Positions 1,924 through 64,000 of a stretch of 64,000 bases of DNA are shown here, one piece after another. The notes under the pieces are model-generated. The model did no database searches, was not told the origin of the DNA, and saw only the letters and a program-made list of their open reading frames with translations. The translations under genes were made by a program, and so were the position numbers. Numbering within the stretch: position 1 is the first letter of the stretch; the number at the start of each line of letters is the position of its first letter. This stretch comes from Lycium barbarum (lineage: Eukaryota; Streptophyta; Magnoliopsida; Solanales; Solanaceae): the NCBI RefSeq assembly GCF_019175385.1, contig NC_083339.1, positions 45,351,330-45,415,329 of the forward strand. Reading direction: 5' to 3'.

Positions 1924-2027
1924 ACTTCCCAGGGGGGTCACCCATCCTAAAATTTCTCCCACCTTAGCACGCTTAACCCCGAAACTTCGATGGAATCCGG
2001 TGCCTTAATGCTGATATAATCGCGTCC
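1924..2027 (-). pseudogene. 5S rRNA-derived sequence inside D1
   Basis: Read on the minus strand, the block aligns with nucleotides 1-103 of plant 5S rRNA as I recall it, with one extra C in the C-box region. GTTAAGCGTGCT (A-box region) is exact and GGATGGGTGACC (C-box region) is retained. The last ~17 nt of 5S, which would close helix I, are absent. It lies about 900 nt from the D1 PBS in the sense orientation of the element. It is probably an ancient co-opted 5S copy rather than a functional rRNA gene. Confidence 0.8.
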
Positions 2028-18075: not shown

Positions 18076-18225
18076 TGTTACACCTCGGAAAAGTCCCCGT
18101 ACATGTATAAGGAATTGACCAACGAAGGGTGTGAGTGTGTGGTGTTTTACTAAGTAAGGGGTGATGATTCATGAATTTTTGGAAATACGAAAGTGGTAGA
18201 ATTTTATCCAGCCCAGTGGTCGTAA

Positions 18226-23757: not shown

Positions 23758-23861
23758 ACTTCCCAGGGGGGTCACCCATCCTAAAATTTCTCCCACCTTA
23801 GCACACTTAACCCCGAAACTACGATGGAATCTGGTGCCTTAATGCTGATATAATCGCGTGC
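23758..23861 (-). pseudogene. 5S rRNA-derived sequence inside D2
   Basis: This copy has the same position and orientation as the D1 copy, about 905 nt from the PBS. The A-box region reads GTTAAGTGTGCT (one change). The C-box region keeps GGATGGGTGACC with the extra C shared with D1. The 3' end of 5S is missing. Confidence 0.8.
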
Positions 23862-39472: not shown

Positions 39473-39860
39473 ATGGAGTTTCATAAGCATTCTTCCTCAC
39501 CTAGACGGAATTAGCATATAAGGTGAGTGTAGCACAAAGAACGACATCAATTAATCATAATTAGGGTCATTAGCTTGTAGGAGCAGAAATATCATGAACT
39601 TTAGGATCTTTAGACTTAAGCTCATCATCATCATTGTCATACTCATAACATATCTCTTATCTTTATCTCATATGAGGCTCTTCGTGGACATAGACTCATA
39701 ATTTCCAGAATGTAAGAAGCTCATGGAGAATAAGGGAAAAATCATGTCATAAGATTCATGCCTTAGAAACGAAGGGCTTAGCCTCACATACCTTTTCGTT
39801 TAACTACTCTATCACTTGAACGTTCCTCTCCAATATTCACGTTTCTACCTCACATACAAA
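39473..39860 (-). mobile_element. 5' LTR of C, middle piece
   Basis: The piece continues the C LTR after B, with a CTCACCT/AGGTGAG inverted repeat (39496-39527) matching B near 38134-38164. It ends abruptly at G sequence. About 500 bp of C LTR expected before 49208 is missing. Confidence 0.78.
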
Positions 39861-40776
39861 GTGACCCGACCCGAATTTGACCCTTATATAAAGGGTAATA
39901 ACCCCCTTTTTTCATCAGATTTTCCTAGAAAATTCCAGAAATTGGTAGAGGGAAAGTGAGGGAATCAAAAGTGAGCAATTTTTAAGTCGCGAAGTAGTGG
40001 TCTAGGTCCGGGTAACGCAAGGTTGTGATTCTAGTATTGTTTTGCGGTGGAATTTAGCGTGGATATTAAGGATATTTCTGTATTAACAAGAAAAAAGGTA
40101 TGAATCTTTCTCTTTTGGTAATATTTAAGGCTTATTTACGGAGATAAAGTCGCTAAATAATTGTATAATGGGTTGATTAGTTATGGAAGTTGGAAAAACA
40201 GCGTGTGGGCTGTTCTATGGAATACTTTGGTGTTGGAAATGATGTTATGGATGTTGGTATTGTTATTGTCGTTGTTGGTTGTTGAATTGAGAATTCGAGC
40301 TAGGATAAAATGCTACAGTGACCCGACCCGAATTTTACCCTTATATAAAGGGTAATAACCCCTTTTTTTCATCAGATTTTCCTAGAAAATTCCAGAAATT
40401 GGAAGAGAGAAAGTGAGGGAATCAAAAGTGAGCAATTTTTAAGTCGCGAAGTAGTGGTCTAGGTCTAGGTAACGCATGGTTGTGATTCTAGTATTGTTTT
40501 GCGGTGGAATTTAGCGTGGATATTGACGATATTGCTGTATTAACAAGAAAAAAGGTATGAATCTTTCTCTTTTGGTATTATTTAAGGCTAATTTACGGAG
40601 ATAAAGTCGCTAAATAATTGTATAATGGGTTGATTAGTTATGGAAGTTGGAAAACAGCGTGTGGGTTGTTCTATGGAATACTTTGGTGTTGGAAATGATG
40701 TTATGGATGTTGGTATTGTTATTATTGTTGTTAGTTGTTGAATTGAGAATTCGGGCTAGGCATATAAATAGGGAAA
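39861..40776. repeat. 458-bp tandem duplication in the G 5' LTR
   Basis: GTGACCCGACCCGAATTT starts at 39861 and again at 40319. Copy 1 stops at GCTAGGATAAAATGCTACA, before the TATA box, so only copy 2 leads into a promoter. The 3' LTR has a single copy. Confidence 0.88.
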
Positions 40777-42332
40777 ATGCTGCCCGATTTTCGGCAAAAT
40801 ATAGAATAGTTTGATTTGAAACTTGGAACAAGTGTGCGATAAAGAGGCTAACATTAGTGTAAATCCTCTTAAATGTAGACTTGTGAGCTCGGACGAATAA
40901 ACGTAGCTAATAGGAGGTCGAACAGGTATGTTAAGGCTCGTCCCTTTCTTTCAGAGGCATGATTCATATGTTATGACTTCATAAATGTTTCCATGTCTTC
41001 CTTATTTTCAAAAGTTAGATGTTTATGACTCCAAGGCATAATTCCTTTCCTAATAATTCATAATGTTTTTCCAAAATTCTCATATTTTCCAAACCAAAGG
41101 TTGTGATTATGTGAGCTCTTATGATAACAACGATGCATATATTTTTCAATGACAACGATGATGTCAAAAATGAGAATATTATTATGACAAATATGATGAG
41201 AACGATTTTTTGTTTAAAGGTTCCAAGTTTATGATTTCGATGACGATATGAGAATATTGAGCTATCTTTTGACCTTTCTTAATTTTATTCGTTGTTGTTG
41301 GCCTCACCTTAAAATAATTGTTCCTTCAAGGTGAGATAGAGCGATGATTATTCCATAATATAATCGGAGGGTACTGACCTTACGTCACTCCAATGTATTT
41401 ATAGCTTTTCTTGGGCTCTCACACATGCTGCTTATATGATATATGTATATGTATATTGGAAATATGGGAAAAGGGGCTAGGCGCTATAGACGCATGGCCA
41501 CCTTTTCAGCTGGTACCATATCACATGTTATCATCCTGGACACGGGATGCCCGGACGCGGGACATATGTGGTTACATGAATTGGAGCTGACGTTCCTCGA
41601 CAATATGATATGTTCTATTTTCTGTATACATGAACAAGAAATGTTTTTCAAAGAAAGCTAAGCGTGCATGGCATCCGCCCTAAGAGGCACTCATATGTAC
41701 AGGTTACTATTTTATCTTATGATATGCTCTATATTTCCATTCTGTTATTATTCATACTTTACATCCCTTACTATGTTATTATTCATACCTTACATACTCG
41801 GTACATTACTCTTACTGACGTCCCTTCTTGTGGATGCTGCGTTCATGCCTACAGGATCAGGTAGACAGTCGGACGATCATTCGCAATAGGACCTCCCCTC
41901 TGCAGCAGTCAGTACGCTCCATCGATCCGGAGCTACAGCCCTTTTGGTATGCTATTCGGTTACGTACATATATGGGTATGGCAGGGCCTTGTCCTGTCAT
42001 TTCTAAAGTTTGTACTCCATAGAGGTTTTTAGACAGTGATATGTAGTCGTGATGTTATGCAGCCTCATCGGCGTTTATTTTGTTGTACAGTATATATATT
42101 TAGCGGCCAAATCGGCTTGCACTGTTACTCTCAGTGTTTATGTTTATATGTATGCGTTGGCCGTGAGTTCCCGGTACGGTGTCTTTTGAGTTGATATTTC
42201 GGGAGACAGTATAGCTCAGTTGTAGATTGTATATAGGCCCAGGATAGTCAGTGAGATGTAAATGCAAGCACAGGAGTGTTTGGCCAGTAGTGGTCGGGCA
42301 TTTGTTACGACCCATCGGTTTGGGTCGTGACA
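39861..42332 (+). mobile_element. 5' LTR of G, left-truncated
   Basis: Relative to the 3' LTR, the first ~450 bp (TGTTACACC to the GCTACAG cluster) are missing, and a 458-bp stretch is tandemly duplicated at the left. The TATA box is TATAAATA (40763-40770) with hairpin GCTGCCCGATTTTCGGC (40779-40795). Then come donor-like AGGTATGT (40924-40931), CTCACCTT/AAGGTGAG (41303-41335), GACCTTACGTCAC (41376-41388), CCCGGACGCGGG (41550-41561) and the GTAC module (41786-41855). It ends GTCGTGACA. Confidence 0.85.
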
Positions 42333-42336
42333 AAAG

Positions 42337-42348
42337 TGGTATCAGAGC
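42337..42348 (+). other. PBS of G
   Basis: TGGTATCAGAGC is a perfect initiator-Met-tRNA type PBS, 5 nt after the LTR end at 42332. Confidence 0.9.
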
Positions 42349-42553
42349 AGTTCGTCCTAGGGATTGTCTATAGATCGTGTCGGTAGAGTCCTGTTTATGG
42401 ATATGAAGCCGGCCACACTTATAAACAGGAGGCTGCAGGGCATCTAAGAATCATTGACTTTTCCTTCTATCTTAGATCGTGCGATAGAGCCAGAGTCTAG
42501 GAAATATCGCTTTTGACCTATTTTTCCTATAGGAAGGTGCAGACTAACGAAAG

Positions 42554-42892
42554 ATGAAGAGATCAGCCTCGGACAGTGGAGGTGTTAAGAAGACCCCCAG
42601 ATCAGATCTTGGACCCCAGGCTCCAGGACTGAATCGGAGGAGCCTCAGTTATTCTATTGAGACTGATCCTTCGGAGGACCCAGCGACGATTCCTCCAGAG
42701 TTTTTGTCTTCCAGGGAGGAGGACCCCCCTGAGGGCAGTTATGACACAGATCCGTCCGAGTATTCGACTGGGACACCGGAGGAGGAGATTTCCGAGGCCG
42801 TACTAGCTACTCTTATGGTAGAGCACTACGTCAGACCAGCCTCCCCGGTGAGTGTTAGGAATACTCTAGCCCTCTATCCTGGCCGTCGGTAA
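42554..42892 (+). CDS. Small acidic, Pro-rich ORF of G, frameshifted
   Basis: This 112-aa frame starts at an ATG (MKRSASDSGG) about 220 nt after the LTR. It contains RRSLSYSIETDPSEDPA, PPEF and AEHY-like motifs (VEHYVRPAS), with many Asp, Glu, Pro and Ser residues and no zinc knuckle or known domain. K has the same ORF in longer form (164 codons). A 1-nt deletion near 42862 in G shifts the frame, and similarity to K continues beyond it in another frame. It occupies the Gag position, but I cannot assign it to Gag. Function unknown. Confidence 0.6.
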   Translation: MKRSASDSGGVKKTPRSDLGPQAPGLNRRSLSYSIETDPSEDPATIPPEFLSSREEDPPEGSYDTDPSEYSTGTPEEEISEAVLATLMVEHYVRPASPVSVRNTLALYPGRR

Positions 42893-45800
42893 GCCAGGAG
42901 TTACCCGGTTATCTATATCCTTTGGACTCAGATGAGAGAGATGACGAAGGCCAGACAAGTGGATGGTGGGTAGACGATGATGAGGAGTACACTTCACCTT
43001 GTAGTTCACCAGATCAGATAGAGACCGATCGACTACAGGTATATTAGTCCTTTTTGGAATTTTCTATGTATGTGCATTTGCTGTATATTATTATTTAATA
43101 GTGGCGAGCGGAAACCTAAAGAGGCCGATAACCGAGTATTTATAAGTAACGGCGACCAAGGTGTGTTCGCTACCATTGGGAATCTGGAAATCTAGGACGG
43201 AAAGCAGTCATAAATACATATGAAAGGTGAATATTGAGAATTAAAAAGGCCAAAGTAGTAATTGTGTAGTCGGAAGAGTAAGAGACCCTTTCTAATTCGG
43301 AGGCAGATGCGTTACGAGAACGTTTTGGAATCTATCAAGATTTCAATTTGCTTTAGATTCTGTGGTGAAGGTTATGCGGTGAGGTGGATACGATTATACC
43401 AGCATTAACGCACCAGATTTCATCTGCATTTCGAGGTTAAGCGTGCTGGGGTGAGAGAAATACTAGGGTGGGTGACCCCCTGGGAAGTGTACAAAAGGTC
43501 CTATAAATTTAGATATAAGAGGCAAATCAGTAGCTAGAGCAGACTAAGGGAGATTGGAGTATGCGGAGTGGTTGGAGACAATAAGAGGTCGCGTAGAATG
43601 AGGCGGACTAGACCGGTGAAGAGAAAAAAGGTGCATCACAGCTCTAGAATTAGGGTGAGTTTGAATAGCATTTGGAAATATTTTGTAAGCGAGATGGTAG
43701 TAATTATATATATATACGTATGCATATGATATCCCATACGTTTCTATATCAGCGGGTATGTGTATCCTGGCAACTAACGTTGCGGTATATAGAAGGCATT
43801 AATCGAATAGGGTAACGAAGTTCAAGTGAAAACAAAATGGTACAAATGTTACAAGGTAAGCTGATGCTATTTTCACTACAGGTTAGGCTTGGAGAGTTTT
43901 GATGTAATGACATCTGGAAAGGAAAAAAAGTGAGTAGATGGAAGGTACGGAGATCAAAATGTCGGAAAAAGTGAAAAGTAAGAAACATGAGTGAGTGAAG
44001 CATCCAAGAGGGACAACGGGCAAGCACGGGACTTTTTGGGGTCAGAGAATAGGCTTCGATAAGTAGGGATAAAAGGATAGTGACCATGACGAGGAATGTG
44101 AAGTAAGAGAAAGAATGGTTAGGCCTTGCGACGATGTTAAGAGATTTCCAGCCCTTGAAAGGTATATAAAGGGATAAGTGTGCGGTCAAATTAACACGAT
44201 TGCCTCGGACATGGACAAGCTTTCCAAAAAGATGACTTAAGAATAGAACGGATTTGCACTTTTAAAGGAATATTTGACGAATTTCAGAGCCGATACTACA
44301 AATAACAAGAGAAGAAAGGTACTCGAGGAGAAAGAAACCCAAGGAAGGTTAAGGATGAAAGTACGAAAGGTATACTAATGGGTTGGTCGAAGGAAGATGA
44401 GAGCGTTTAAGAGTAAAGTAACTGGAAATTTTTAACCATGGGAGTAAGAAGGATACTTTAATGAGCTGGCGGTAGGAAACCGATTACTCATCGAGGAAAG
44501 AACAAGGATGATGAGTCGACACAATTGATTAGAAAATTAATTACATGGAATAAGAATTCATGTGAAGATCGAGAGATTCGATCATAGAGGAAATGGAATG
44601 AAATGTAAGGAACGTGCATGGAAGACCACCCGGCCGTAGCATTAGAAAGATAGATAAAGGTTCGATGAACGAGGATAGAGAGAGTGTAAATTGTAAGAAT
44701 TCTGTGCTGAGAGAAAAAGTAGCAGGACACTCGAAAAACTTGGATGCACAGCTACAACACAAACGCGTAGTTAAGAAGGATTATGAGTAAGTGAGGTAAG
44801 TGGGCGAAAGGACTAGTAATGGATGAAAGGGTATGGAAATGTTGAAAAAAAAATGATGATACAGACATAAAGGGAAGAAGAACTCAGGGAAAGAAGTTTT
44901 AGATATGTTATAAGCAAATTCGGGAAGAAAAATGAGGAGTAAGGTATAATCGAAGACTCCATAAAGGACGTGGTGAATCTCGATGTCCCCATTAACTAGC
45001 GAGTCCGGAAAACCGTTAGTCATAAAAGACAGAGGTGTGAAAAGACGGAAAAGAAGGCATCGAAATTGGATCTAACCCTTATAAGTATTCTGATTGGATA
45101 CAAGACTGTAACTAGCAAGAAGATAGACAAGTCAGATCATACGATAACGGAACCCCGGCCCTAAGAAGATCGTGAAGGGCGGCAGATAATTATCGAAGAC
45201 GACGGTTACTCGAAGGCTATGGGCGTATCAGGACCTCCTTAATAAGGGGGGGGAGAAAATACTAGGCTTGAAAGGAACTATGACGTTTCAAACTCCAAAA
45301 AAGGAGATTTATTATCTCGGGGCCAGAATTCGACACGTATTGGCACATCGGGAAGGTAACAGAAAGAAGTAGAAACATATTGACAATATGTGTACCATGA
45401 GGCAGACATAGGGAGAAAGTATGGAAGATAACCCAAGAGAGCACTTTACAGCAAGATAAACTACGATATTTTTAGACCATGATTTGAATCCCTCGTATGG
45501 GGCAAAAAAAAAAAGCGTCGTACCTAAGTATGCAGTGACATGCCCTAAAAGGTAATGAAAAGAGCAAGAAAGGTCTCTAAGATAAATTTACAAAGGGTGT
45601 TAGAGAGGATGACAAACCCAAAGAACCCTTGGGATGACAATGACAATTGTAATAAAAAGGAACAACGATTGGTAGTTTGGAAATTTTTGAAGGAAAGAAA
45701 CAACACTGCTCCTATAAATGGAAATAAAAGAGTTCACCGGATATTGGAAAATAGTTCATGGACCACTAATTATACTGAACATGAGATCATATGCTATGGA

Positions 45801-46709
45801 ATTATATGAACCGTCAACGTGAAGCTATGCCCAACTAAAATTGTAAGAAGGCCATACCGGAAAGCCAACAAGGAATAACGACTGACGAAACGATCGCCGA
45901 TACAAGGAAATCGAAGATAAGTATACTTGCATTGCAAGAGAGTCATAATAGAAGAATTGTCGTAGTCCTACGCTTCTGGGATTGTATTAATAGATGTGAG
46001 GGAAGGAAGTAAAGAAAAAGTTGTAGCAGGAGCTCAAAGATGTTGCGAGTTATGAAATTAGTTGAACTCGGATTATAAGTTTTCCATAAGTTTAACTGGA
46101 CTGCGAAGGATAATAAACGACGAAGAAACATTATGTATAGATGTATTTCGGATAATGATATAACTGTCCTTAGAAAGGAACATAACCATTAGGTTCACTA
46201 GCAACACAGTTATGCTGGGTAAACATTTGGCATGTAAGGGTAAAAGAGATGGCGACAAGGAGGTAAGCATTAGAGAGCCTAAATAATGGGCTACAAAAAA
46301 ATCGGTACAGTGTGTATCTAAGATCAACGGGTACAAAAAGGATAGCCCGAGATGGCACCGAAGGAGTAAACGCAAAGAGGGCGCCGTAAAGAGAGAAAGG
46401 AAGCTGCCCACTAACAAGGAAACACGGAGCGAAAAAAAAAAAGAGTACTTACAGCACGATGAATAGTTATGGCACGGCAAGTCAAGACTACCATAATGGA
46501 GAAAGAACAAGAGAAAGATGCTAGTTAATTTCTGATCATGTACACAAGGACAAAGAAGTGAAAGAAGATGACTATAGTCAATAAAAGAGTTAAGAAAGAA
46601 TGAGAAGAGACTGATCCAAGTTATAGTTTAAGCAAATGGTAATCGAACCCTAAAGGAAAAATAATTGTTCTAACGAATCAAAGATGGTGTCGTGGGTTGG
46701 TAATACTGC
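42893..46709 (+). mobile_element. G interior downstream of the ORF, non-coding
   Basis: The segment is purine-rich on the plus strand, without pol domains. Minus-strand open frames (up to 146 codons) have counterparts in K but are hydrophobic low-information translations of the purine-rich strand. It contains the 5S-like block, a TA-rich tract near 43708 and an internal PPT-like G7 tract at 45244-45256. It is homologous to D in reverse complement. Confidence 0.7.
43386..43488 (+). pseudogene. 5S rRNA-derived sequence inside G
   Basis: This is a gap-free match to nucleotides 1-103 of plant 5S rRNA as I recall it, with about 19 differences by eye. GTTAAGCGTGCT (A-box region) is exact, and GGTGGGTGACC and CCTGGGAAGT (C-box region) are kept. 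The last ~17 nt of 5S are replaced by element sequence, so helix I cannot form. It lies about 1.05 kb after the 5' LTR, in the sense orientation. Confidence 0.85.
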
Positions 46710-46745: not shown

Positions 46746-49207
46746 TGTTACACCCTGTATCTTCGAAGAGCACTTATCAAATGTGAAACCTAAGTACGTT
46801 GAGTTAGGGTTAAGTAAAACCACTTTGGAATATAAGGAGCAAGCATTATTAAGTTTATTTAATGAGTGAAGGATGTATATAAGGTATACCGGAAGGTTTT
46901 ATAAGGAAATGGGTGGAGGATTGGAGAAAGGATAGGTAATGTTTTGTGTGAGAATTTTGGTCCAACTTGAGGGACAAATATCTCTTAGCATATAAAGTTT
47001 TTTGAAGTGAAACAAAACCCTAAAATGAAGTTTGTCGAGTCTAGTTTCCAACGCAAGAAATATCTAATCGATAGGACATCGGAGTAGAGAATTATGGACG
47101 TTACAAGTTCAGCTGACGGAGCAGAAACGCGTGCTACAGTAATTCTACAGTAAAGGACCTGCTACAGTGCTGCTATAGTAAAATGCTACAGTGTACCCCG
47201 ACCCGAATTTGACCCTTATATAAAGGGTAATTACCCCCTTTTTTCATCAGATTTTCCTAGAAAATTCCAGAAATTGGAAGAGGGAAAGTGAGGGAATCAA
47301 AAGTGAGCAATTTTTAAGTCGCGAAGTAGTGGTCTTGGTCCGGGTAACGCATGGTTGTGATTCTAGTATTGTTTTGCGGTGGAATTTAGCGTGGATATTG
47401 ACGATATTGCTGTATTAACAAGAAAAAAGGTATGAATCTTTCTCTTTTGGTATTATTTAAGGCTAATTTACGGAGATAAAGTCGCTAAATAATTGTATAA
47501 TGGGTTGATTAGTTATGGAAGTTGGAAAACAGCGTGTGGGTTGTTCTATGGAATACTTTGGTGTTGGAAATGATGTTATGGATGTTGGTATTGTTATTAT
47601 TGTTGTTAGTTGTTGAATTGAGAATTCGGGCTAGGCATATAAATAGGGAAAATGCTGCCCGATTTTCGGCAAAATATAGAATAGTTTGATTTGAAACTTG
47701 GAACAAGTGTGTGATAAAGAGGCTAACGTTAGTGTAAATCCTCTTAAATGTAGACTTGCGAGCTCGGACGAATAAGCGTAACTAATAGGAGGTCGAACAG
47801 GTATGTTAAGGCTCGTCCCTTTCTTTCAGAGGCATGATTCCTATGTTATGACTTCATAAATGTTTCCATATCTTCCTTATTTTCAAAAGTTAGATGTTTA
47901 TGACTCCAAGGCATAATTCCTTTCCTAATAATTCATAAATATTTTCCAAAATGCTCGTATTTTCCAAACCAAAGGTTGTGATTATGTGAGCTCTTATGAT
48001 AACAATGATGGATATGTTGTTCAATGACAACGATGATGTCAAAAATAAGAATATTATTATGATGACTATGATGAGAACGATTTTATGTTTAAAGGTTCCA
48101 AGTTTATGATTTCGATGACGATATGAGAATATTGAGCTATCTTTTGACCTTTCTTAATTTTATTCGTTGTTTTTGGCCTCACCTTAAAATAATTGTTCCT
48201 TCTAGGAGAGATAGAGCGATGATTATTCCATAATATAATCGGAGGGTACCGACCTCACGTCACTCCGATGTATTTATAGCTTTTCTTGGGCTCTCACGCA
48301 TGATGCTTATATGATATATGTATATGTATATGGGGAATATGGGAAAAAGGGCTAGGCGCTATAGACACATGGCCACCTGATCAGCTGGTATCATATGACA
48401 TGTTATCATCCCGGACGCGGGATGCCCGGACGAGGGACATATGTGGTTACATGAATCGGAGCCGACGTTCCTCGGTAATATGATATGTTTTATTTTCTGT
48501 ATAAATGAACAAGAAATGTTTTTAAAAGAAAGCTAAGCATGTATGGCATCCGCTCTAAGAGGCACTCATATGTACAGGTCACTCTTTTATCTTACGATAT
48601 GCTCTATATTTCCATTCTGTTATTATTCATACTTTACATCCCTTACTATGTTATTATTCATACCTTACATACTCGGTACATTACTCGAACTGCCGTCTCT
48701 TCTTGTGGACGCTGCGTTCATGCTCGCAGGATCAGGTAGACAGTCGGACGATCCATCGCAGTAGGACCTCTCCTCAGCAACAGTCAGTACGCTCCATCGA
48801 TCCAGAGCTACAACCCTTTTGGTATGCTATTCGGTTACGTACATATATGGGTACGGAAGGGCCTTGTCCTGTCATTTCTACAGTTTGTACTCCACAGAGG
48901 TCTATAGACAGTGATATGTAGTCGTGATGTTATGCAGCCTCGTCGGCGTTTATTTTGTTGTACAGTATATATGTGTAGCAGCCATATTGGCTTGCGCTGT
49001 TACTCTCAGTGTTTAGGTTTATATGTCTGTGTTGGCCTTGAGTTCCTGGTACGGTTTCTTTTGTGTTGATTGTTCGGGAGACAGTATAGCTCAGTTATAG
49101 ATTGTATATAGGCCCAGGATAGTCAGTGAGAAGTAAATGAAAGCACATGAGTGTTTGTCCAGTAGCGGTCGGGCACTTGTTACGGCCCATCGGTTTGGGT
49201 CGTGACA
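46746..49207 (+). mobile_element. 3' LTR of G (2462 bp)
   Basis: The LTR runs complete from TGTTACACCCTG to GGGTCGTGACA. It has a GCTACAG cluster (47131-47200), TATAAATA (47638-47645), TTACGTCAC-type and CACGTCACT boxes near 48250-48265, CCCGGACGCGGG (about 48411-48422) and the GTAC module (about 48660-48730). The large antisense frames are not genes. Confidence 0.9.
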
Positions 49208-49908: not shown

Positions 49909-50621
49909 CTAAGTATCTTGATATTGTGCTGTTTAGCTGTTAGATGACAGAGGCAGGTAAGTATAGCTAGATTCTTTATTGACTCTTCAGTTTATCTTGT
50001 AATTCAGTTTAGTATCAGTTTTAGTCACCTTACATATTTGGTACATTATTTCATACTGACGTTCATTTGCTAGGGACGCTGTGTTTATGCCCGCAGGTTC
50101 AGATAAGTAGTTGGAGGGACCTCCATAGTAGATTGCTGAGTACCAGCTAGTGTGGTAAGCTCCATGACATTCGAAGTTTCCAAGTCCCGAGTTTTGTGTA
50201 TATACAGATGATGGCTAGGTCGGGGCCTTGTCCTGAACATAGTACATTCACTACTCTTTAGAGGCCTATAGACGTATTCTGTATGTCCAATATTGTCAGT
50301 ATGGCGGCCTTGTCGGCCCTTGTATATATTACCTTTTGGCTTTTGCTGGTTGTAGACTTAAAGGATGGCCTTGTTGACCTGCATAGCGATACTTGTGTTC
50401 TACATGACGGGATGATCCCGCTTTTAGTTGAGTTGATTGTTGTTCACAGATATGTTAGCGTATGGCCTTGTCGGCGTAAGTTATGATACCACACTTATAG
50501 ATCGGCTTTATTGGCCTAAGCTAGTCATTGAGACACAGGTTATACAAGTTACAAATTGGTATGCTCAGACCTGGTGAGGCACCGGATGTCGGCCACGCCT
50601 CCTCAGATTTGGGGCGTGACA
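49909..50621 (+). mobile_element. LTR of element H, part right of the C insertion
   Basis: The segment ends GGGCGTGACA. It carries the shared GTAC module (about 50028-50096), a donor-like CAGGTAAGT (49954-49962) and the GGGCCTTGTCC repeat near 50222. It starts directly at the C edge, so C inserted into this LTR; CTAAG (49909-49913) is the likely TSD copy. To the right it abuts integrase sequence, implying H inserted into element I. The rest of H is off-window. Confidence 0.75.
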
Positions 50622-51380
50622 ATCAGAAACCTAGCGGATTGGTGCAAAATATAGATATCCCAATGTGGAAATGGGAGATGATTAATGTGGACTTCGTTAA
50701 GGGTTTTCCTCATTCCAATCGTAAGTTTGATACTATATGGGTGATCAGGGATAGGCTGACAAAATCAGCTCATTTCTTACCGGTCAAGACTACATATACG
50801 GCCGAGGGCTATGCAAAGCTGTTCGATTACATGGTATTCCCGTCTCTATATTATCTGATAGAGGTGCTCAGTTCACAGCTAACTTTTGGAGGTCCTTCCA
50901 AAGGTTTTTAGGTATGCAGGGTAATCTTAGCAGAACCTTTCATCCACAAACGGACGGGCAAAGCAGAACGCACAATATAGCCGCTCAAAGATATGTTGCG
51001 AGCTTGTGTGCTAGACTTTAAAGGAAGTTGGGATGATGATCTACCGCTTATTGAATTTTCATATAAAAATAGTTACCATGCCAGCATCAAGATGGCCCCT
51101 AATGAGGCTTTATATAGGAGGAGATGTAGATCTCCTATAGGGTGGTTCGAGGTCGGCAAAATGGAGTTATTCGGTCCTGACTTGGTACATCAAGCTATAG
51201 AGAAAGTCAAGCTTATTTAGGAGCGTTTGTTGACTACTCGAAGTCATCAAAAGTCGTATTCAGATGTACGACGACGAGACTTAGAGTTCAAAGCCGATGA
51301 TTGGGTCTTTTTGAAGATTTTTCCTATGAAGGGCGTGATAATACTGGGAAATAAAGGCATTTTTAGCCCGAGATACATTA
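50622..51380 (+). pseudogene. pol: Integrase fragment of element I, broken at both ends
   Basis: The fragment starts inside the integrase after the zinc finger (QKPSGLVQNIDIP). It has MINVDFVKGFP with the first Asp, IWVIRDRLTKSAHFLPVKTT, then a frameshift before the SDRGAQFT motif and another near the HPQTDGQ motif. Further pieces are [34 protein letters not shown] and DVRRRDLEFKADDWVFLK, and it ends at SPRYI where K begins. A TAG lies at 51218. It is more divergent from A, B and C than they are from each other. It was cut by H on the left and K on the right. Confidence 0.85.
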
Positions 51381-54067
51381 TGTTACACCTCGTCTCTTCG
51401 AAGAGCACTTATCAAATTTGAAACATAAGTACGTTGAGTTAGGGTTAAGTAAAACCACTTTGGAATATAAGGAGCAAGCATTATTAATTATATTTAATGA
51501 GTGAAGGATGTATATAGGGTATACCGGAAGGTTTTATAAGGCAATGAGTGGAAAAAATGCAGTAGTACGACTTTGGAGAAAGGATGGGTAATGTTTTGTG
51601 TGAAAACTTTGATCCAACTTGGGGGACGAATAACTCTTAGCATATGAAGTGTTTTAAGGTGAAACAAAAGCCCAAAATGAATATCGTCAAGTCTAGTTTC
51701 CAACGCAACAAACCGCTCATCGATAAGACATTGGAGTCGGGAATTATGGACATTACATGTTCAGCTGACAGAGCAGAAACGCGTGCTACAGTACTGCTGC
51801 AGTAACCGACTGCTACCGTAAAATGCTACAGTACCCCCTACCCGAATTTGACCCTTACAAAAAGGGTAAGAACCCCTTTTGTTTTCACCAGATTTTGCTA
51901 GAAAATTCTAGAAATTGAAGAGGGAGAGTGAGGAAAACAAAAGGTGAGCAATTTTCAAGTATTGGAGTAGTGGTTTAGGTCCGGGTATCGCATGGTTGTG
52001 ATTCTAGTATTGTTTTGTGGTGGATTTTAGCGTGGATATTGAGGGTATTGCTGTCTTAACAAGAAAAGAGGAATGAATCTTTCTCTTTTGCTATTATTTA
52101 AGGTTTATTTACGGAGATAAAGTCGTTAAATAATTGTGTAGTAAGTTGGTTAGTTATGGAAGATGGAAAATAGCGTGTGGGCTGTTTTATGGTACATATT
52201 GGTGTTGGAAATGATGTTGTTGATGTTGGTGTTGTTGTTGTGTTGTTGGTTGTTGGATTATGATTTCGGGCTAGGCATATAAATAGGGGAGATGCTGCCC
52301 GATTTTCGGCAGAATATAAAGTAGTTTAAATTGAAAGCTTAGTGCACGTATGCAACGATGAGTCTAACGATAGTGTGAATTCTCTCAAATGTAGATTTAC
52401 GAGTACGGACGGATAAGTGTAGAAAATAGGAGGCCGAACACGTATGTTAAGGCTTGCCCCTTTCTTTCAAAGGCATGATTCTGATGTTATGGCTTCATAA
52501 ATGTTTCCATATCATCCTTGTTTTCAAAAGTTAGATGTTTATGACTCCATGGCATAATTCCTTTCCTAATAATTCATAAATTGTTTTTCAAAATGTTCGT
52601 ATTTTCTAAGTCAGAGATTTATGGCTCCGTGAGCTCTTATGATAACAACGATGAGCCTGTTTTCACAATCATAATGATGATGTCAAAGATGAGCATATTT
52701 TCCTACGATGATTATGATGATGATGATTCCGTGTTTAAAGGTTCCAAGTTTACGATTTCAATGACGATATAAGAATGTTGAGTTATTTCTTGACTTCTCA
52801 ATTTTATTCATGAATGATGACTACTTTTAAAGATTCCAAAATATATGAATTGACGCCTTATGAGATTTATGACCTTATTCTATGTTCTCTCTTGATGTTG
52901 TTTTTCATTGATAGTCTCACCTCATAATAATTGTTCCTTTAAGGTGAGACAAAGAGACCATGATTATTCCATAATATAATCGACCGACCTTACGCCACTC
53001 CAATAGAGACATAACTTTCCTTGGGCTCTCATGCATGCTACTTATATAATATATGTATATACATATGGGGAATATGGGAAAAAGGGCTAGAGCGTTATAT
53101 ATGCATAACCACCTAATCAATTGGTATTATATAGACGCGTAACCACTTGATCAGTTGGTATTATATGGGAAAGAGGGATAGAGCACTATAGATGCGTAAC
53201 CACCTGATCAGTTGGTATTATATGACATGATACCATCCCGGACGCGGGACATGTGTGGCTAAATGGATTGGAGCCGACGCCTCGGCAACATGATATGTTC
53301 TATTTTATGTATACATGAACAAAAAATGTTTTTCAAATAAAGCATTACTATGGATATATGTATATATGTGGATCGAGCGCCACGTTCCGCAGCACTAAGC
53401 ATGCAGGGTACCCGCCTAAAAGGCACTCATATGTACAGGTTACTCTTTTATCTTACGATATGCTCTATATTTCCATTATGTTATTATCCTTGCTTGTATC
53501 CCTTATTATATTATCGTTCATGCCTTACATACTCGGTACATTACTCGTACTGACGTCCCTTCTTGTGGACGCTGCGTTCATGCCCGCAGGATCAGGTAGC
53601 GAGTCGGATGATTCACAACAGTAGGACCTCTCCTCAGCAACAGTCGGTACGCTCCATTGATCTGGAGCTTCAGTCCGTTTGGTATTCCATCTTGTTACGT
53701 ACATATATGGGTACGGCAGGGCCTTGTCCTGTCCCTTCCACAGTTTGTATTCTATAGAGGTCTGTAGACAGTGATATGTAGTCGTGTTGTTATGCAGCCT
53801 CGGCGGCGTGTATTTTGTTGTACAGTATATATGTATGGCGGCCAAATCGGCTCACGCTGTTATTCTCAGTGTTTATGTTTATATGTATGCGTTGGCCGTG
53901 AGTTCCCGGTACGGTTTCTTTTATGTTGAATGTTCGGGAGACAGTATATCACAGTTACAGATTATATATGGGCCCAGGATAGTCAGTGAGAAGTAAATGC
54001 AAGCACAGGAGTGCTTGGCCAGTAGTGGTCAAGCACTTGTTACGGCCTATCGGTTTGGGTCGTGACA
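51381..54067 (+). mobile_element. 5' LTR of K (2687 bp)
   Basis: The LTR runs from TGTTACACCTCG to GGGTCGTGACA. It has a GCTACAG cluster (51783-51835), TATAAATA (52278-52285) with hairpin GCTGCCCGATTTTCGGC (52294-52310), a GTATGT site (52442-52447) and CTCACCT/AAGGTGAG (52916-52948). CGACCTTACGCCAC (near 52985), CCCGGACGCGGG (53238-53249) and the GTAC module (53521-53590) follow. Confidence 0.9.
53063..53225. repeat. Imperfect triplication in the K 5' LTR
   Basis: Three copies of a unit containing CGTAACCACCTGATCAGTTG or close variants, each followed by GTATTATAT, start near 53104, 53138 and 53194. The G LTRs have one copy (near 41490 and 48367). Confidence 0.8.
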
Positions 54068-54287: not shown

Positions 54288-54782
54288 GTGAATAGATCAG
54301 CTTCAGATGGTGGGGGTGCTAAGATGGCCCCTAGAGTATCTCCAGGACCCCAGTCTCCCGGACCGAGCAGAAGGAGCCTCAGTTATTCTATTGAGACTGA
54401 TCCCTCAGAGGACCCAGCGATGGTTCCTCCAGAGTTCTTGACTCCCAGGGAGGAGGACCCCCCAGAGGACAGCTATGACACAAATCCGTCCGAGTATTCG
54501 TCTGGGACACCGGAGGAGGATATTCCCGAGGCCGTGCCAGCTGCTCCTATGGCAGAGCACTACGTTAGACCAGCCCCGCTGGTGAGTGTTACGGATTACT
54601 CCAGTCCCCTATTCTGGCCGTCAGTAAACCAGGAGTTACCCGGTTATGTATATCCCTCGGATTTCGATGAGAGAGATGACGAAGGCCAGACGAGCAGATG
54701 GTGGGTAGACGATGATGAGGAGCACACTTCACCTTATAGTCCACCAGATCATACTAGGGACCGATCGGCTACCGATATATGA
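54288..54782 (+). CDS. Small acidic, Pro-rich ORF of K (164 codons), start codon lost
   Basis: This is the full-length relative of the G ORF. The first codon, aligned with G's ATG, is GTG here, so normal plant initiation is lost; the next ATG lies about 12 codons in. It contains RRSLSYSIETDPSEDPA, EEDPPEDSYDT, EHYVRPAP and a C-terminal RWWVDDDEEHTSPYS segment. No domain, signal peptide or membrane segment is recognised. Over about 100 codons shared with G, I count roughly 26 replacement and 14 silent codon differences by hand, a weak hint of past constraint. Function unknown; a divergent Gag-like protein is possible. Confidence 0.55.
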   Translation: MNRSASDGGGAKMAPRVSPGPQSPGPSRRSLSYSIETDPSEDPAMVPPEFLTPREEDPPEDSYDTNPSEYSSGTPEEDIPEAVPAAPMAEHYVRPAPLVSVTDYSSPLFWPSVNQELPGYVYPSDFDERDDEGQTSRWWVDDDEEHTSPYSPPDHTRDRSATDI

Positions 54783-57700
54783 GTCCATATTGGAATTTTC
54801 TATGTATGTGCATTTGCTGTAGATTATTATTCAATAGCGGCGAGCAAAAATCCAAGGGCCGATAACCATGTATTTACAAGTAACGGCGACCAAGGTGTTT
54901 TCGCCACCTTTGGAAATCTGGAAATCTAGGACGGAAAGTAGTCATACATACAGATAAAAGGTGAATATTGAGAATTAAAAAGGACAAAATAGTAATTGTG
55001 TAGTCAGAAGAGTGAGAGACCCTTTCTAATTCGGAGGGAGATGTGTTACGAGAATGTTTTGGAATCTGTCACGACTTCAACTTACTTTAGATTATGTGAT
55101 GAAGGTCATGCGGTGAGGTGGATACGATTATACTAGCATTAACGCACCGGATTTCATCAGAGTTTCGAGGTTAAGCATGCTGAGGTGAGAGAAATACTAA
55201 GATGGGTGACCCCATGGGAAGTGTACAAAAGCTCCTATAAATTTAGATAAAAGAGGCAAATGAGAAGCTAGAGCAGCCTAAGGGAGATTGGAGTATGCAG
55301 AGTGGTTGGAAACCTTAAGAGGTCGCGTAGGACGAGGCAGACTAGACCGGTGAAGAGAAAGAAGGTGAGTCACAGCTCTAGAATTAGGGTAAGTTTGAAT
55401 AGCATTTGGAAATATTCTGTAAGCGAGATGATAGTAATTATATATATACGTATGCATATGGTATCCCATACGTAGCTATATCAGCGGGTATGTGTATCCC
55501 GGCAACCAACATTGCGGTATATGGAAGGCATTAATTGAACAGGGTAACGAAGTTCAAGTGACAAAAAAAAAATAAGTGGCACAAATGTTACACGGTAAGC
55601 TGATGATATTTTCACTACAGGTTAGGCCTGGAGAGCTTTAATGTAATGATATTTGGAAAAGAAAGAAAGTGAATAGATGGAAAGTAAGGAGATCAAAATG
55701 TCGAAAAAGGTGAAAGAGTAAGAAACATAAGAGAGTGAAGCCTCCAAGAGAGACGACGGGCAAAGCACGAGACTATTTGGGTAAAAAAAAATATTCGAAG
55801 GTAGGCGTGTGAAAGGGATAAAGTGTGGTAGTATGGAACAAAATAGGAATGTGTGGGGTTCGAGAACAGAATTTGATAAGTGGGGCTAAGAGGATAGTGA
55901 CCACGACGAGGAATGAGAAGTAAGAGAAAGAATGGTTAGGCCGTGCGACGATGTTAAGAGATTTCCAACTCTCGAAAGATATATTTACAAAGGGATAAAT
56001 GTGTAGCCATATTGGTATGATTGCCTTGGACATAGAGAAGCTTGCCTAAAAGATGACTTAAGAATAGAATGGATTTGCACGTTTAAAGGAATGTACGTTT
56101 AAAGAAATGTTTCACGAACTTCAGAGCCGATACTAAAAATAATAACAAAGAGGAGAAGGGCGCTCGAGAAGAAAGGAACCTAAGGAGAATTAAGGGTGAA
56201 AATAGGGAAGGTATACTAACAGGCTGACCGAAGGAAGAGGAGAGCATTTAGGAGTAAAGTAACTAGAAATATTTAACCACGGGAGCAAGAAGGATACTTT
56301 AACGAGTTGGCGGTAGGAAACCGATTACTCGTCGAGGAAAGAACAAGGATGATGAGTCGACACAATTGATTAGAAAATTAATGACATGGAATAAGAATTC
56401 ATGTGAAGACCAAGAGATACGATCATAGAGGAAATAGAATGAAATGTAAGGAACGTGCATCGAAGACCACCCGGCCGTAGCATAAAAAAGATAGATAAAG
56501 GTTCGATGAACGAGGATAGAGATAAAGGCTCGACGAATGAGGATGGAGAGAGAGTACATTGTAAGGATTCTGTGCTAAGAGTAAGAAGTAGCAGGACACT
56601 CGGGAAACTTGGATGCGCAGCTGCAACACAAATGCGTAGTTAAGAAGAATTATGAGTGAATGAGCTAAATGAGTGAAAAGACTAGTAGTGGATGGAAGGG
56701 TATGGAAATGTTGAAAAAAATGATGATATAGACATAAATGGAAGAAGAACTCAGGGAGAGAAGTTTCAGATATGTTATAAGCAAAATCGGGAAGAAAAAT
56801 GAGGAGTAAGGTATAATCGAAGACTTCATAAAGGACGTGGTGAATCTCGATGTCCCCATTAACTTTCGGGTCCGGAAAACCGTTATTCAAAAAAAATAGA
56901 GGTGTGAAAAGACAGAAAAGAAGGCATCGGAATTGGATCTAACCCTTATAAGTATTTCGATTGGATACAAGATTGTAACTAGCAAGAAGATAGACAAGTC
57001 AGACCATACGATGACGGAACCCCGACCCTAATAAGATCGTGAAGGGCAGCAGATAATTATCGAAGACGACGGTTACTCAAAGGCTATGGGCGTATAAGGA
57101 CCTCCTTATTAAGGGGGGAAGAACATACTAGACTCGAAAGGAGCTATGATGTTTCAAGCCCCAGAAAAGGAGATTTATTAGCTCAGGGCCAGAGTTCGAG
57201 GCGTATTGGCATATCGGGAAGGTAACAGAACGAAGTACAAACGAATTGACAATAAGTGTACCATGAGGCAGACATAGGGAGAAAGTATGGAAGATAACAA
57301 AAGAGAGCACTTTACGCCAAGATGAACTACGATATTTTTAGGCCATGATTTGAATCCCCCGTATCGGGCAAAAATTGCGCCGTACTTAAGTATGCAGTGA
57401 CATGCCCAAAAAGGGTAATGAAAAGAGCAGGAAATGTCTCTAAGATAATTTACAAAGGGTGTTAGAGAGGATGACCAACCCAAAGGACACTTTGGATGAC
57501 AATGACAATTGTAATAAAAGGAACAATGATTGGTAGTTTGGTAATTTTTGAAGGAAAGAAAGAACACTGCTCCTATGAATGGAAATAAAAGAGTTCACCG
57601 GATATTAGAAAATAGTTAGTGGGCCACTAATTATACTGAACATAAAAGCATATGCTATGGAATTATATGAACCGTCAACGTGAAGCTATGCCCAACTACA

Positions 57701-58583: not shown

Positions 58584-58619
58584 AACATTCGAGGACGAAT
58601 GTTTTTAAGGGGGGAAGGA
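58584..58619 (+). other. PPT of K with adjacent palindrome
   Basis: AACATTCGAGGACGAATGTT (58584-58603) is followed by AAGGGGGGAAGGA (58607-58619), which abuts the 3' LTR. Confidence 0.88.
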
Positions 58620-58761
58620 CGTTACACCCCGTATCTTCGAAGAGCACTTATCAAATTTGAAACATAAGTACATTGAGTTAGGGTTAAGTAAAACCACTTT
58701 GTAATATAAAGAGCAAGCATTATTAAGTTTATTTAATGAGTGAAGGATGTATATAAGGTAT

Positions 58762-58766
58762 ACCGG
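58762..58766. repeat. Target site duplication of F, left (ACCGG)
   Basis: ACCGG at 58762-58766 and 62834-62838 flanks F. The K 5' LTR has it once near 51521. Confidence 0.92.
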
Positions 58767-59534
58767 TGTCACACCCCGACCTTACTAGGGTGTGATGGGC
58801 ACCCGACCCTTACTTAGGGCCGAGCGAACCCTCAGACTCTTGCTGCACATAAAGTTATGTCAAACTTTTAAATCAAATCACATAAAATACATAGTAAAAT
58901 TTTTTTTCTTTCTTTCAGAAATGTTCTTTCTCGAAGCTTCCAAGCGAACAAATCAATAGTCATACAAAATTCAATACATAACACAGACCGACATATCGGC
59001 TGACGGAGCCGCTTACAGACTGACATACTATACCCACGACGCTGTCTGCAAAGTCTCTAATACCATACAGAAACCATAACACATATACCATACCCTGACT
59101 TGGCAGTCCTCCAGGAGCAAATGGAGTTCGCCACCACTGCTGAAATATCTTCTATAGTGTCCTCATCTCGTCTGGGAGTACCTGCGCGGCATGAAACGCA
59201 GCCCCCAAAGAACCGGGGGTCAGTACGGAATATGTACTGAGTATGTAAGACATAGAATACAGAAAGCAGAACCATAATTGAAACAAACAGTACCAGGGTG
59301 AGCATATTATCCAGATTACCAAATTACTTGCTTCTCAGACATAGTTCATACAGACCAATACCGACCATACAGACCGACACAGACCATACCGACCAATACA
59401 GATCATAAAGACCGTACAAATCACACAAAGCATAACAAAATCATGCAGAGCATACAGAATGCCGACATACTTACTTTCCAGACACAGATCGCACATACCG
59501 ACACCAGATGTCAGAAGGAGTGTGGCACGTACAG

Positions 59535-59870
59535 AACGCACAGATAAGGTCATACGTCAAACGGAGTACAGAACGTACTGAATACTCAGATGATGTCATA
59601 TATCGGACGGTATACAGAACGTACGGATTACTCAGATGATGTCATATATCCGACGGAATACAGAACGTACGGATTACTCAGATGATGTCATATATTAGAC
59701 GGAATACAGAACGTACGGATTACTCAGATGATGTCATATATCGGACGGAATACAGAACGTACAGATGATGTCATATACCGGACGGAATGCAGAACATACA
59801 GAATACTCAGAGGATGTCAGAACATACAGAACACTCAGATGATGTCAGAACATACAGAATACTCAGAATC
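59535..59870. repeat. 46-bp minisatellite in F
   Basis: ACTCAGATGATG starts at 59584, 59630, 59676 and 59722, a 46-bp period. Units contain CATATATCGGACGGAATACA, and degenerate units continue to about 59870. Confidence 0.92.
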
Positions 59871-60628
59871 GTATGTCACATATGCGTATAACAGAACCCG
59901 ACCCTGTGATAAGGGACGCGGTAAACAGAATCATCATATATTAATTTCATGTATCATGTATGCATATATCAGAACCCGACCCTCCAGTGTGGGGTGCGGT
60001 AACAGAGCCCGGCCCTCTAGTACGGGGCGTGGTGAACAGACAGATCATATGCCATCCTGGCCACCACCCCATATCATTATATCATCATACCATATAACAG
60101 AGCCCGGCCCGCCTATGAGGGACGCGGTGAACAATGCAGGGTAATGCGCACGATAACAGAACCTGGCCCGGGACGCAGTGAATCATATCGTAGCGGACAC
60201 ACGAGGACATAGCAGAACCTGGCCCGGGACGCAGTGAAAGATACATTGAGTCATGCACGAGCAGAGTCGTGAGAAACCACATGCATAGACATCAAGACTC
60301 AACAGACCAGTGTACTTACCGATACCTGGAGGCTCGGAACAGATTTCAGGTCAATCCGGCGTAGTATGAGGAAGTTACGAGCGTTTGAAGGACAGAGCGC
60401 TTTATAAGCGTTTCAGAAGCCTTTTTCGGAGAATCAGAGTCATAGTCATATCAGGCACCTTCGGATGTCCTTACGAATCAAATCAAATAGAGATTTTGGA
60501 ACCATACTTACGTATAAGAAAATTATGGACGTCTTGATACAGAAACCTCTTCGAACATTTCAGAGCGATCCGAGATCGTATACGGAAGTTAGGGACATTA
60601 AATCTTACAGAAGTTCTCGCACCAGAAT

Positions 60629-60903
60629 AAACATATCAGAATGCTCTTACCAGGATACTGATTTCGGAATTCTCATATCAGGATACTCATATCGGAATAC
60701 TTATATCAGCATACTTACATCAGAATACTTATATCAAAATACTCATATCGAAACACTTATATCAGAAGACTGATATCAAAATGCTTATATCAAGACACTT
60801 ATATCAAAATACTTATATCAGAATACTTATATCAAAATACGTATATCAGAATACTTGTACCAAAATACTTATATCAAAATACTTATATCAAATACTTATA
60901 TCA
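60629..60903. repeat. 14-bp minisatellite in F
   Basis: ATCAAAATACTTAT and close variants repeat about 19 times. The open frame through part of it is repeat translation. Confidence 0.9.
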
Positions 60904-61187
60904 AGGGATGAACTAGGATCACAAACTCAGGTCAAGAAGTGAATTAGAATCATAATCAGACTCAGAATCACAGAACAGAGTTACCCCAAGGCAGCATATC
61001 ACATTATACCTTACTTGGCTCTAGGACATGCCAAAGAAAGAAAGGGTAAGCCTTACATACCTGTGCCGCGACCAACTAGTTACGCTTGTTCATCCAACTT
61101 GTCAATCTACATTCAAAAGGATTCATCCATTCATTAGATTCGTTGTCACATACTTGCCTTAACCTTTCAAACACGTTTGCTTATATT

Positions 61188-61205
61188 CTGCCGGAATTTC
61201 GGCAG
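61188..61205. promoter_or_regulatory. Palindrome beside a TATA-like box (F)
   Basis: CTGCCGGAATTTCGGCAG differs by one base from the perfect palindrome in E. Adjacent CATCTCCCCTGTAAATA is the reverse complement of the TATTTACAGGGGAGATG block. Confidence 0.5.
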
Positions 61206-62833
61206 CATCTCCCCTGTAAATATACCAACCCCGAGAATATGGCTCGGCCCAATTCAACAACAACCCAACCAACAACCAAGCTACAACATCAATAAGAGGT
61301 TCAAAACACATTCTAACATTAGTGACCCTTTTCTATACAATTCGACGACATTCCACTTTCATTCAAATCAACCGCATGCAATCAAACCAACATCCATCTT
61401 CATGCATTCAAGTACTAATCAAAACTATTTAAACAAGATTCAAGAACGCCTCGGACAAATCACAAAATATTCAAACAACCCAACAATGCACCATGGAACC
61501 CAAAATCTTCCAACTTCCATAGGAACCATCACAACACATTTCTTTCTTCAAAATTCACAATCTACACCAACAAACCACACTTTTACAACATTATTATCAT
61601 GATTACAAAAAACTACCTTTGATTCAAATTGGCTTCCAAAAACAGCCCGCAACAATTACGACACCATCTTAGATCATTAAGCTCTCATTTACATCACATA
61701 ATCCTCAACACAACAACCCAAACATACTAAATAAAATTAGTTCATTCTGTGACATGCAAAACAGTCCATTTTCGGCCAGCCCTTCAACACACACATTCCA
61801 TAATTTTCATCCATTTTTTTGCACATCACAACAACACATAATCATGCTAAATACACTTAATTCATCATTTCTACACACCACACACACACACGGCTACACA
61901 CACTAATCTCAACTCCAACTTGAATCATTAAGTTCTCATTTTCATCATAGGATACTTATCAACAACAATCAAATTACCATATAAAAATTATTCCATTTTT
62001 TTTCCTACACAACATGTACACACACGGCCAAGCTTCCAACCATGCATGTTTGCATGCTTCTCTTCCATTTCCACATACCACAACATACACAAACTATTTA
62101 TAACATATAAAATAGGATTAATTCTTACCTTTGCCTCCCAACTTCTTTACTCAACCAAAGTGCGGAAAACAATGAAACGGATGGCCTATCTTCCGAAACA
62201 ATTACACCACGTTGTAGAGGGCCCTTGAATTAGTAGGAATACCATAAGAAAATAATTTTTGGGGCAAGATTTCATGGAGCCAATTTTCCATGGCTAGGGC
62301 CGAACCCTCACCTTTCCATTCTCTTCATCTTTTTTTTTTTGTTTTGTTCTCCTCTTCTTGTCTTGAATTAAAAGAAGACTCATTTATATATATACATATA
62401 TTTTCAAGTATGTGAGGGGCACATGCCCCTCTATAGAAAACTCTTCCATTTTCTTGATTTTTCTTTTTTTTTTTTTTTTTTTTTGAATTGCTTTATTTGG
62501 TCAAAGAAGACCAAATGTTTTCCTTGGTACACTTTAGCCCCCAAAGCAATGTGGGCATATACTTATGCCACACAACCAACATGGAAATTTTATAAACTTT
62601 CAAGACTTTTGTGAAATTCCCATTTTGCCCCTCGATTTTTCTCAATATTACCACAAGCCATTTTGTGAATTTTCATTTTTACCCTTAACCTTTCTCAATA
62701 TTTCCATGCAATAATATTCATAACTAATTTTTATAACCACTTGCACATTCCAACCCTTTTTAAAAATAGTCCCGTTCTTAACTTTCCACGAAGACTTTAG
62801 AATTTCCAAACGTACAATATACGGGCTATAACA

Positions 62834-62838
62834 ACCGG
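62834..62838. repeat. Target site duplication of F, right (ACCGG)
   Basis: Second copy of ACCGG. K LTR sequence continues with AAGGTTTTATAAGG, as in the 5' LTR. Confidence 0.92.
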
Positions 62839-64000
62839 AAGGTTTTATAAGGAAATGAGTGGAAGAAATGAAGTAGTACGACTTTGGAGAAACGATGCGT
62901 AATGTTTTGTGTGAAAACTTTGATCCAACTTGGGGGACGAATATCTCTTAGCATATGAAGTGTTTTAAGGTGAAACAAAATCCTAAAATGAATTTTGTGG
63001 AGTCTAGTTTCCAATGCAACAAACTGCTCATCGATAGGACATTGGAGTAGGGAATTAAGCACATTACAAGTTCAGCTGACAGAGCAGAAACGCTACAGTG
63101 CTGCTACAGTACCCCCGAATTTGACTCTTATAAAAAGGGTAAGAACCCCTTTTTTTCACCAGATTTTGCTGGAAAATTCCAGAAATTGAAGAGGGAGAGT
63201 GAGGAAAACACAAAGTGAGCAATTGTCAAGTATCGGAGTAGTGGTTTAGGTCCAGGTAACGCAGGGTTGTGATTCTAGTATTGTTTTGTGGTGGATTTTA
63301 GCGTGGATATTGAGGGTATTGCCGCCTTAACAAGAAAAGAGGAATGAATCTTTCTCTTTTGGTATTATTTAAGGTTTATTTATGGAGATAAAGTCGTTAA
63401 ATAATTGTGTAGTAAGTTGGTTAGTTATGGAAGATGGAAAAGAGCGTGTGGGCTGTTTTATGGTACATATTGGTGTTGGAAATGATGTTGTTCATGTTGG
63501 TATTGTTTTTGTGTTGTTGGTTGTTGGATTATGATTTCGGACTAGGCATATAAATAGGGGAGATGCTGTCGATTTTCGGCAGAATATAAAGTAGTTTAAA
63601 TTGAAAGCTTAGTGCACGTATGCAACAATGAGTCTAACGATAGTGTGAATTCTCTCAAATGTAGATTTACGAGTACTGACGGATAAGCGTAGAAAATAGG
63701 AGGCCGAACAGGTATGTTAAGGCTTGCCCCTTTCTTTCAAAGGCATTATTCCAATGTTATGGCTTCATAAATGTTTCCATATCTTCCTCGTTTTCAAAAG
63801 TTAGATGTTTATGACTCCATGGAATAATCCCTTTCCTAATAATTCGTAAATGTTTTCCAAAATGTTCGTATTTTATAAGTCAGAGATTTATGGCTCCGTG
63901 AGCTCTTATGATAACAACGTTGAACCTGTTTTCATAATCATAATGATGATGTCAAAGATGAGTATATTTTCCTACGATGATTATGATGATGATGATTCCG

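Follow-up and report, generated by a model that had tools for sequence, protein, structure and literature searches.

The window, i.e., the whole stretch of 64,000 nucleotides that was analysed, contains two members of one family of LTR retrotransposons, elements A and B, each with a single 5S rRNA-derived block in its interior. The features of both elements are the following:

40306..42332, plus strand, 5' LTR of A (94.6% identical to the 3' LTR; 5' end rearranged)
42333..42504, plus strand, primer binding site (TGGTATCAGAGC) and leader of A
42554..42892, plus strand, ORF1 of A (112 aa, no Pfam match)
43079..44033, plus strand, module around the block, common to A and subfamily C (73-80% in self-BLAST)
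43386..43488, plus strand, 5S rRNA-derived block of A (5S positions 1-103; matched by Rfam and by the genome's own 5S genes)
46746..49207, plus strand, 3' LTR of A (TGTTACACCC...GTCGTGACA, polypurine tract just before it)
51381..54067, plus strand, 5' LTR of B
54288-54782, ORF1 of B (164 aa, no Pfam match)
55120..55222, plus strand, 5S block of B (Rfam RF00001 match at 55120-55236, 56.5 bits, E 3.8e-9)
58620..64000, plus strand, 3' LTR of B (broken by another repeat at about 58767-62833 and truncated by the window end)

The LTRs of this family run TGTTACACCC...GTCGTGACA and are about 2.5-2.7 kb long, the interior is about 4.4 kb and the element about 9-10 kb. The initial annotation had called the element pol-less, and indeed neither of the two short ORFs has a Pfam match and the roughly 3.7 kb of interior past ORF1 contains no plus-strand frame of at least 130 aa in A or B. 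The leader of A shares 76-81% identity with its counterparts in those elements of the window that bear gag-pol, and 84-86% with the leaders of subfamily C. With the gag-pol-bearing element at 11133-18100 the identity is 79-81% over the primer binding site plus about 170 nt of leader; the ORF of that element at 13903-15537 matches zinc knuckle, protease and RT in Pfam, and we take the element to be a Tekay-type chromovirus (chromodomain by eye). The host element of the block is probably Tekay-related, but unlike that chromovirus the 5S-bearing interiors show no recognised gag, protease, RT or integrase. The LTR pairs of six fetched copies, aligned over more than 700 bp, were 92.0-96.9% identical (a seventh pair, that of L031 with 298 bp and 75.8%, was excluded from the age range), and LTR divergence dates the insertions to about 1.2-6.5 million years ago, assuming 1.3e-8 or 6.5e-9 substitutions per site per year. 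A 5-bp target-site duplication, identified by eye, flanks the block-bearing copy L036.

Several other observations concern the anatomy of the two elements. A direct duplication of about 445 nt lies at 39860-40304, within the 5' LTR of A. The repeat at 58767-62833 in the 3' LTR of B has relatives at 2928, 7143 and 18710 and contains tandem arrays of 46-nt (59505-59766) and 14-nt (60595-60906) units. By eye, ORF1 of B is proline-rich and acidic, and the plus strand of 43500-46640 and 55230-58600 appears purine-rich. A frame resembling an integrase remnant (50528-51380; by eye, without Pfam match, 66% identical to the pol end at 16745-17500) passes directly into the 5' LTR of B, as in a recombinant or tandem LTR arrangement, and this pol-LTR junction at 51381 was found in one of 39 other best matches, at 79%. 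The junction had been considered as proof of an autonomous partner that may mobilise the family in trans, a candidate role to which the leader shared with gag-pol-bearing elements also relates, but its rarity does not provide that proof.

The genome's own 5S genes are arrayed in tandem, one about every 391 bp. BLAST against this array aligned the block of A without gaps over 103 nt to gene positions 1-103 (84.466% identity), so the coordinates, length, sense orientation and gap-free match given by the initial annotation were all correct, and its distance of about 1.05 kb agrees with the 1,054 nt between the end of the 5' LTR (42332) and the start of the block. The match stops at both block ends: neither the spacer before the gene nor the final 16 of its 119 nt are matched. 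The Rfam search that had been proposed as a check was significant, RF00001 matching 43389-43504 on the plus strand with 53.7 bits and E 2e-8 (gathering cut-off 38). Beyond the interiors of A and B, no Rfam 5S match was found at the gathering score in the whole window or at E up to 5 in 39000-64000, and at those thresholds the LTRs of A and B are thus without 5S-derived sequence. All three 5S promoter boxes are recognisable in the block; in the 5S numbering, we take the A-box to be 50-64, the intermediate element (IE) 67-72 and the C-box 80-97, which places them as follows:

43435..43449, plus strand, A-box
43452..43457, plus strand, IE
43465..43482, plus strand, C-box

Two other ideas about this part of the interior were rejected. 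The stretch 43100-43150, in which GGCGAGCGGAAAC and TAACGGCGACC resemble 25S rRNA, gave no LSU match in Rfam at a lax threshold. An intron enclosing the block (donor at about 43038, acceptor at about 43881) is contradicted by the lack of the donor in B and of the acceptor in C1 and C2, as judged by eye. C1 and C2 are minus-strand elements in the window which belong to another subfamily than A and B, and their blocks lie here:

1924..2027, minus strand, 5S block of relative C1 (by alignment; below the Rfam gathering score)
23758..23861, minus strand, 5S block of relative C2 (by alignment; below the Rfam gathering score)

Since C1 and C2 have the counterpart of 43079-44033 including the block and differ from A on either side of it, the block belongs to a module that has undergone shuffling between non-autonomous elements. 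Further C-type copies were fetched by guessed position, and 3 of 18 such stretches contained the block. There is also a block-less subfamily (L019, L020, L028 and part of L021), in which a replacement of about 700 bp, 90-97% alike among them and with a common breakpoint at A position 44384, takes the place of the 5S module. No Rfam match near a gathering score and no tRNA was found in these four loci or in L031 and L037, all of them block-less or doubtful. L019 is a clean insertion with LTRs 95.2% identical and a 5-bp target-site duplication (by eye), and such copies indicate that relatives multiply without the block.

The block is frequent in this genome. An element-specific pattern of 25 places from the IE to the C-box, four of them with two letters allowed, had 779 exact matches and its reversed control none, which argues that the resemblance to 5S is not due to chance; one pattern had no match in viral contigs. 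With a probe 1.5 kb downstream of the block, 20 loci were taken from the 38 listed matches other than A and B; 13 of the 20 carry the block, and 11 of these 13 reach the Rfam gathering score. Seven-letter words flanking the C-box at the right distance anchored 1,668 sites (reversed control, 14), and the exact 14-nt C-box core TAGGATGGGTGACC was present in 978 of them. For the first-ranked of the 154 usable flank windows, those with insertion columns being unusable, 208 sites were anchored, and 91 of them retained the core of that window. After subtraction of the control counts the comparison was 59% vs 46% (p 3.5e-4), in which the flank core is a rough control because its anchors, which include CpG, differ in kind. 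In the median flank window (682 sites in total), 46 family strings of the 50 shown, four having been excluded as chance matches, contained three haplotypes with 7 of 46 each, i.e., 15% for the commonest (by eye, from the strings shown). The C-box change G86A was counted by eye in 12 of about 100 listed strings, mostly with the same neighbouring letters, which indicates that an altered C-box has also spread. A lineage with an altered C-box that has spread, GGGATGAGTG (e.g., G000:C1:64316761), is a natural experiment on whether TFIIIA binding is needed. The 5S block in the element interior is real, abundant and common to several subfamilies, and the proposal of the initial annotation, a 5S-derived block inside a non-autonomous LTR element of gypsy type, is supported.

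For the analysis of conservation, copies were picked by probes that lie outside the block, to avoid a bias towards it. Forty loci were fetched, ten were dropped because the region was absent or too short, and the 30 usable ones together with A and B gave 32 rows. Pairs of these rows differed on average by 0.102 within the block, as compared to 0.133 over 43079-44040. With divergence corrected for base and methylation context, the observed-to-expected ratio (O/E) of the block was 0.72, and none of 655 flank windows was as low. The C-box had an O/E of 0.34, which none of 825 windows matched, the IE 0.33 and the A-box 0.72, with 133 of 831 windows as low as the A-box. The suggestion that the A-box and C-box are the best-kept parts therefore holds for the C-box, and not for the A-box, whose O/E is the same as that of the whole block.

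A tree of 42 rows was built from these 32 rows, C1, C2, three copies found with a C probe and five chosen by block similarity; the p values from the trees assume independent sites. Internal branches carried 0.311 changes per site in the block and 0.645 in the flanks (Fisher 1.7e-5 for the internal/terminal contrast), and terminal branches carried about equal numbers, 1.660 and 1.529. Without the five picked rows, the block had 28 internal and 169 terminal changes and the flanks 520 and 1,156 (p 3.3e-7), the boxes 4 and 46 (p 2.3e-4) and the C-box 0 and 15 (p 0.008). When each window was left out of its own tree, none of 39 flank windows had fewer internal changes per site and one of 39 had a lower ratio; as the windows overlap, this rank test has few independent units. 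The C-box showed no internal-branch change in its 18 sites, and none of 801 flank windows of 18 nt was as low. Its canonical 10-mer, which carries one change in element A, was exact in 32 of 37 copies, with none of 840 flank 10-mers as uniform, and in 37 of 42 copies. The comparison of block and flanks proposed in the initial annotation has thus yielded fewer internal-branch changes in the block, about half of those in the local flanks, with none in the C-box and equal terminal change, and this suggests purifying selection on the block in its local context. Neither this comparison nor the Rfam search has refuted the initial proposal.

A rather unlikely alternative is that the block is a functionless captured piece of 5S, a passive fossil, and that its conservation stems from the mosaic history of the subfamilies or from a larger cis region, e.g., 43386-43640. 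Several results are in line with it or limit the case for selection, besides the multiplication of the block-less relatives and the altered-C-box lineages. Over the whole interior of 15 copies, neither the block (O/E 0.84, with an equal or lower value in 978 of 3,716 windows) nor the C-box (O/E 0.60; 445 of 3,971) was exceptional. Thirteen of these 15 copies came from a probe located at 44900, near and past which the element is more conserved, so the baselines differ along the element; the result still counts against a strong claim. The proportion of singletons to variants present in at least three copies did not differ between block and flanks (p 1.0), nor, with terminal changes as the reference, did the boxes differ from the remainder of the block (p 0.17). 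The adjacent 43538-43640, just 3' of the block, is nearly as constrained, with few internal and many terminal changes, and may be a cis element of its own. Moreover, the mean terminal branch (0.057) exceeds half the LTR divergences (0.016-0.042), which implies that terminal changes are partly older than the insertions; these branches are too long for post-insertion change alone, and the internal/terminal contrast is not a clean comparison of before and after. Against a passive fossil, however, stand the depletion of internal-branch changes relative to the local flanks, found in two row sets and in the jackknifed trees, and the exact C-box core in 59% of anchored sites as compared to the divided haplotypes of the median flank window.

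If the block is functional, it may act as DNA or as RNA. The P5SM exon of the TFIIIA gene acts in splicing as a 5S mimic, and the block could likewise be a 5S mimic in the genomic RNA that binds uL18/L5 or TFIIIA and serves export, splicing or packaging. It lies between ORF1 and the long non-coding interior, like a leader element, and the near-fixed stem changes at 20, 34 and 46, all three within the 103 nt, retain a standard pair in 40-42 of 42 copies. However, the kept base pairs (846 of 1,007) were no more than expected (null 824, sd 29; 391 of 2,000 shuffles reach 846). Loop E G75 is A in all aligned copies and positions 77-78 are variable, in helix III the pair 29-48 is disrupted in 15 of 42 copies and 30-47 in 9 of 42, and helix I is gone, as the match ends at position 103. 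We consider such an RNA-level element distinctly unlikely, and the recruitment of 5S-RNA-binding proteins raised by the initial annotation has become less likely with the change in loop E and the often broken pairs of helix III. We consider it very unlikely that the block goes back to an inserted Cassandra LTR or SINE3, a 5S-headed SINE, and not directly to 5S rRNA. Cassandra, Ajax and SINE3 do bear 5S-derived stretches with promoter boxes (PMC10853983, PMC10886601), but no tail or target-site duplication was seen by eye around the block.

The C-box is the main DNA contact of TFIIIA. As it is the best-kept part and loop E and helix III have decayed, the pattern favours a DNA-level over an RNA-level role, and the suggested selection would probably act on the binding of TFIIIA to DNA. 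That the block recruits Pol III factors, the other role suggested at the outset, fits the pattern of the C-box as a putative function for which there is also counter-evidence. Plant 5S genes have a TATA-like element at -28 and a C at -1, and inspection of the sequence upstream of the block found no recognisable 5S-type TATA or -1 C. No TTTT occurs within about 170 nt of the block in 42 copies, within the stretch seen of each; the first one lies 170-197 nt past the block in 26 of the 42 and 362-417 nt in 10, and there is none within the stretch seen in 6. The block is therefore no functional 5S gene, having neither a complete 5S with helix I nor a near T-run terminator.

We tentatively favour, as quite a plausible account, that a 5S fragment was captured before the subfamilies split, was spread in a shuffling module and has been kept because its DNA binds TFIIIA via the C-box. 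A fragment of 5S rRNA (positions 1-103) would have been captured by a non-autonomous gypsy-type element before the present subfamilies separated, and would then have been inherited inside the shuffling interior module. The 5' border falls exactly at gene position 1, which suggests that the fragment came from 5S RNA through template switching and not from 5S DNA. The block may owe its retention to its C-box DNA, which would still bind TFIIIA, and TFIIIA could bring TFIIIC, perhaps also Pol III, to the middle of the element. The outcome might be a short transcript, or the chromatin of master copies might be held open for the LTR-driven Pol II transcript. A putative TFIIIA or Pol III site is the best reading of the function, and the necessity of the block is called into question since the block-less subfamily and altered-C-box lineages have multiplied. 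It is possible, if somewhat unlikely, that the interior holds a working 5S-type internal control region and that two polymerase systems act on one element. In that case Pol II would make the genomic RNA from the LTR, TFIIIA and TFIIIC, with or without Pol III, would act at the interior C-box, and this C-box would be a short-RNA promoter or an anti-silencing site.

The 5S-bearing LTR elements described in the papers cited here are miniature, and their 5S piece lies in the LTR, from which it can drive the entire element. Inside an element of 9-10 kb it can hardly do so, and it would need another role if functional; chromatin opening, a regulatory small RNA and factor capture are possible. A full-length Pol III transcript is also disfavoured by the weak processivity of Pol III, to which PMC10886601 relates the small size of TRIMp3. 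If the block is functional, some thousand 5S-like C-boxes, or more, scattered over a single plant genome may compete for TFIIIA, and 5S annotation and FISH of genomes of this kind can be led astray. If two polymerase systems do serve the element, this would be the third use of the 5S promoter by retroelements, after SINEs and TRIMp3 elements.

The nearest kin of the block-bearing family are Cassandra and Ajax, and the interior position of the 5S sequence is what is new within the known 5S-bearing non-autonomous LTR retrotransposons. No description of an interior 5S in a gypsy element was recognised among the matches listed from the open-licence literature, which is weak evidence of absence. 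Cassandra is a TRIM (PMC10853983, PMC7215508) of 565-860 bp in total (PMC10886601), in which the 5S sequence is always found roughly halfway along the LTR, its core measuring about 70 bp and its canonical C-box reading AGGATGGGTG, and Cassandra-like elements lacking the 5S stretch exist (PMC10853983). Like Cassandra, the family described here shows the 5S promoter boxes; unlike this miniature element with almost no interior, it has LTRs of about 2.5 kb, about 4.4 kb of interior and the 5S sequence once, in that interior, within a total of about 9-10 kb. Ajax, Helenus and TRIMp3 are all small and carry their small-RNA sequence in the LTR (PMC10886601). Ajax and TRIMp3 are, like our family, LTR elements with a partial 5S containing the promoter region, but Ajax is a nemertean element of 421-434 bp with the 5S in its LTR, whereas ours is large with the 5S in its interior (PMC10886601). 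SINE3 also has a 5S-derived sequence with an internal promoter, but is a non-LTR element, while the present family has LTRs, a primer binding site and a polypurine tract (PMC10886601). Our family agrees with the LARDs, large non-autonomous LTR elements encoding no retroelement protein (PMC7215508), in that the interior ORFs of A and B have no Pfam match and no other plus-strand frame reaches at least 130 aa. It differs from the LARD definition, as given in PMC7215508, in carrying a piece of 5S and an ORF1 of unknown kind.
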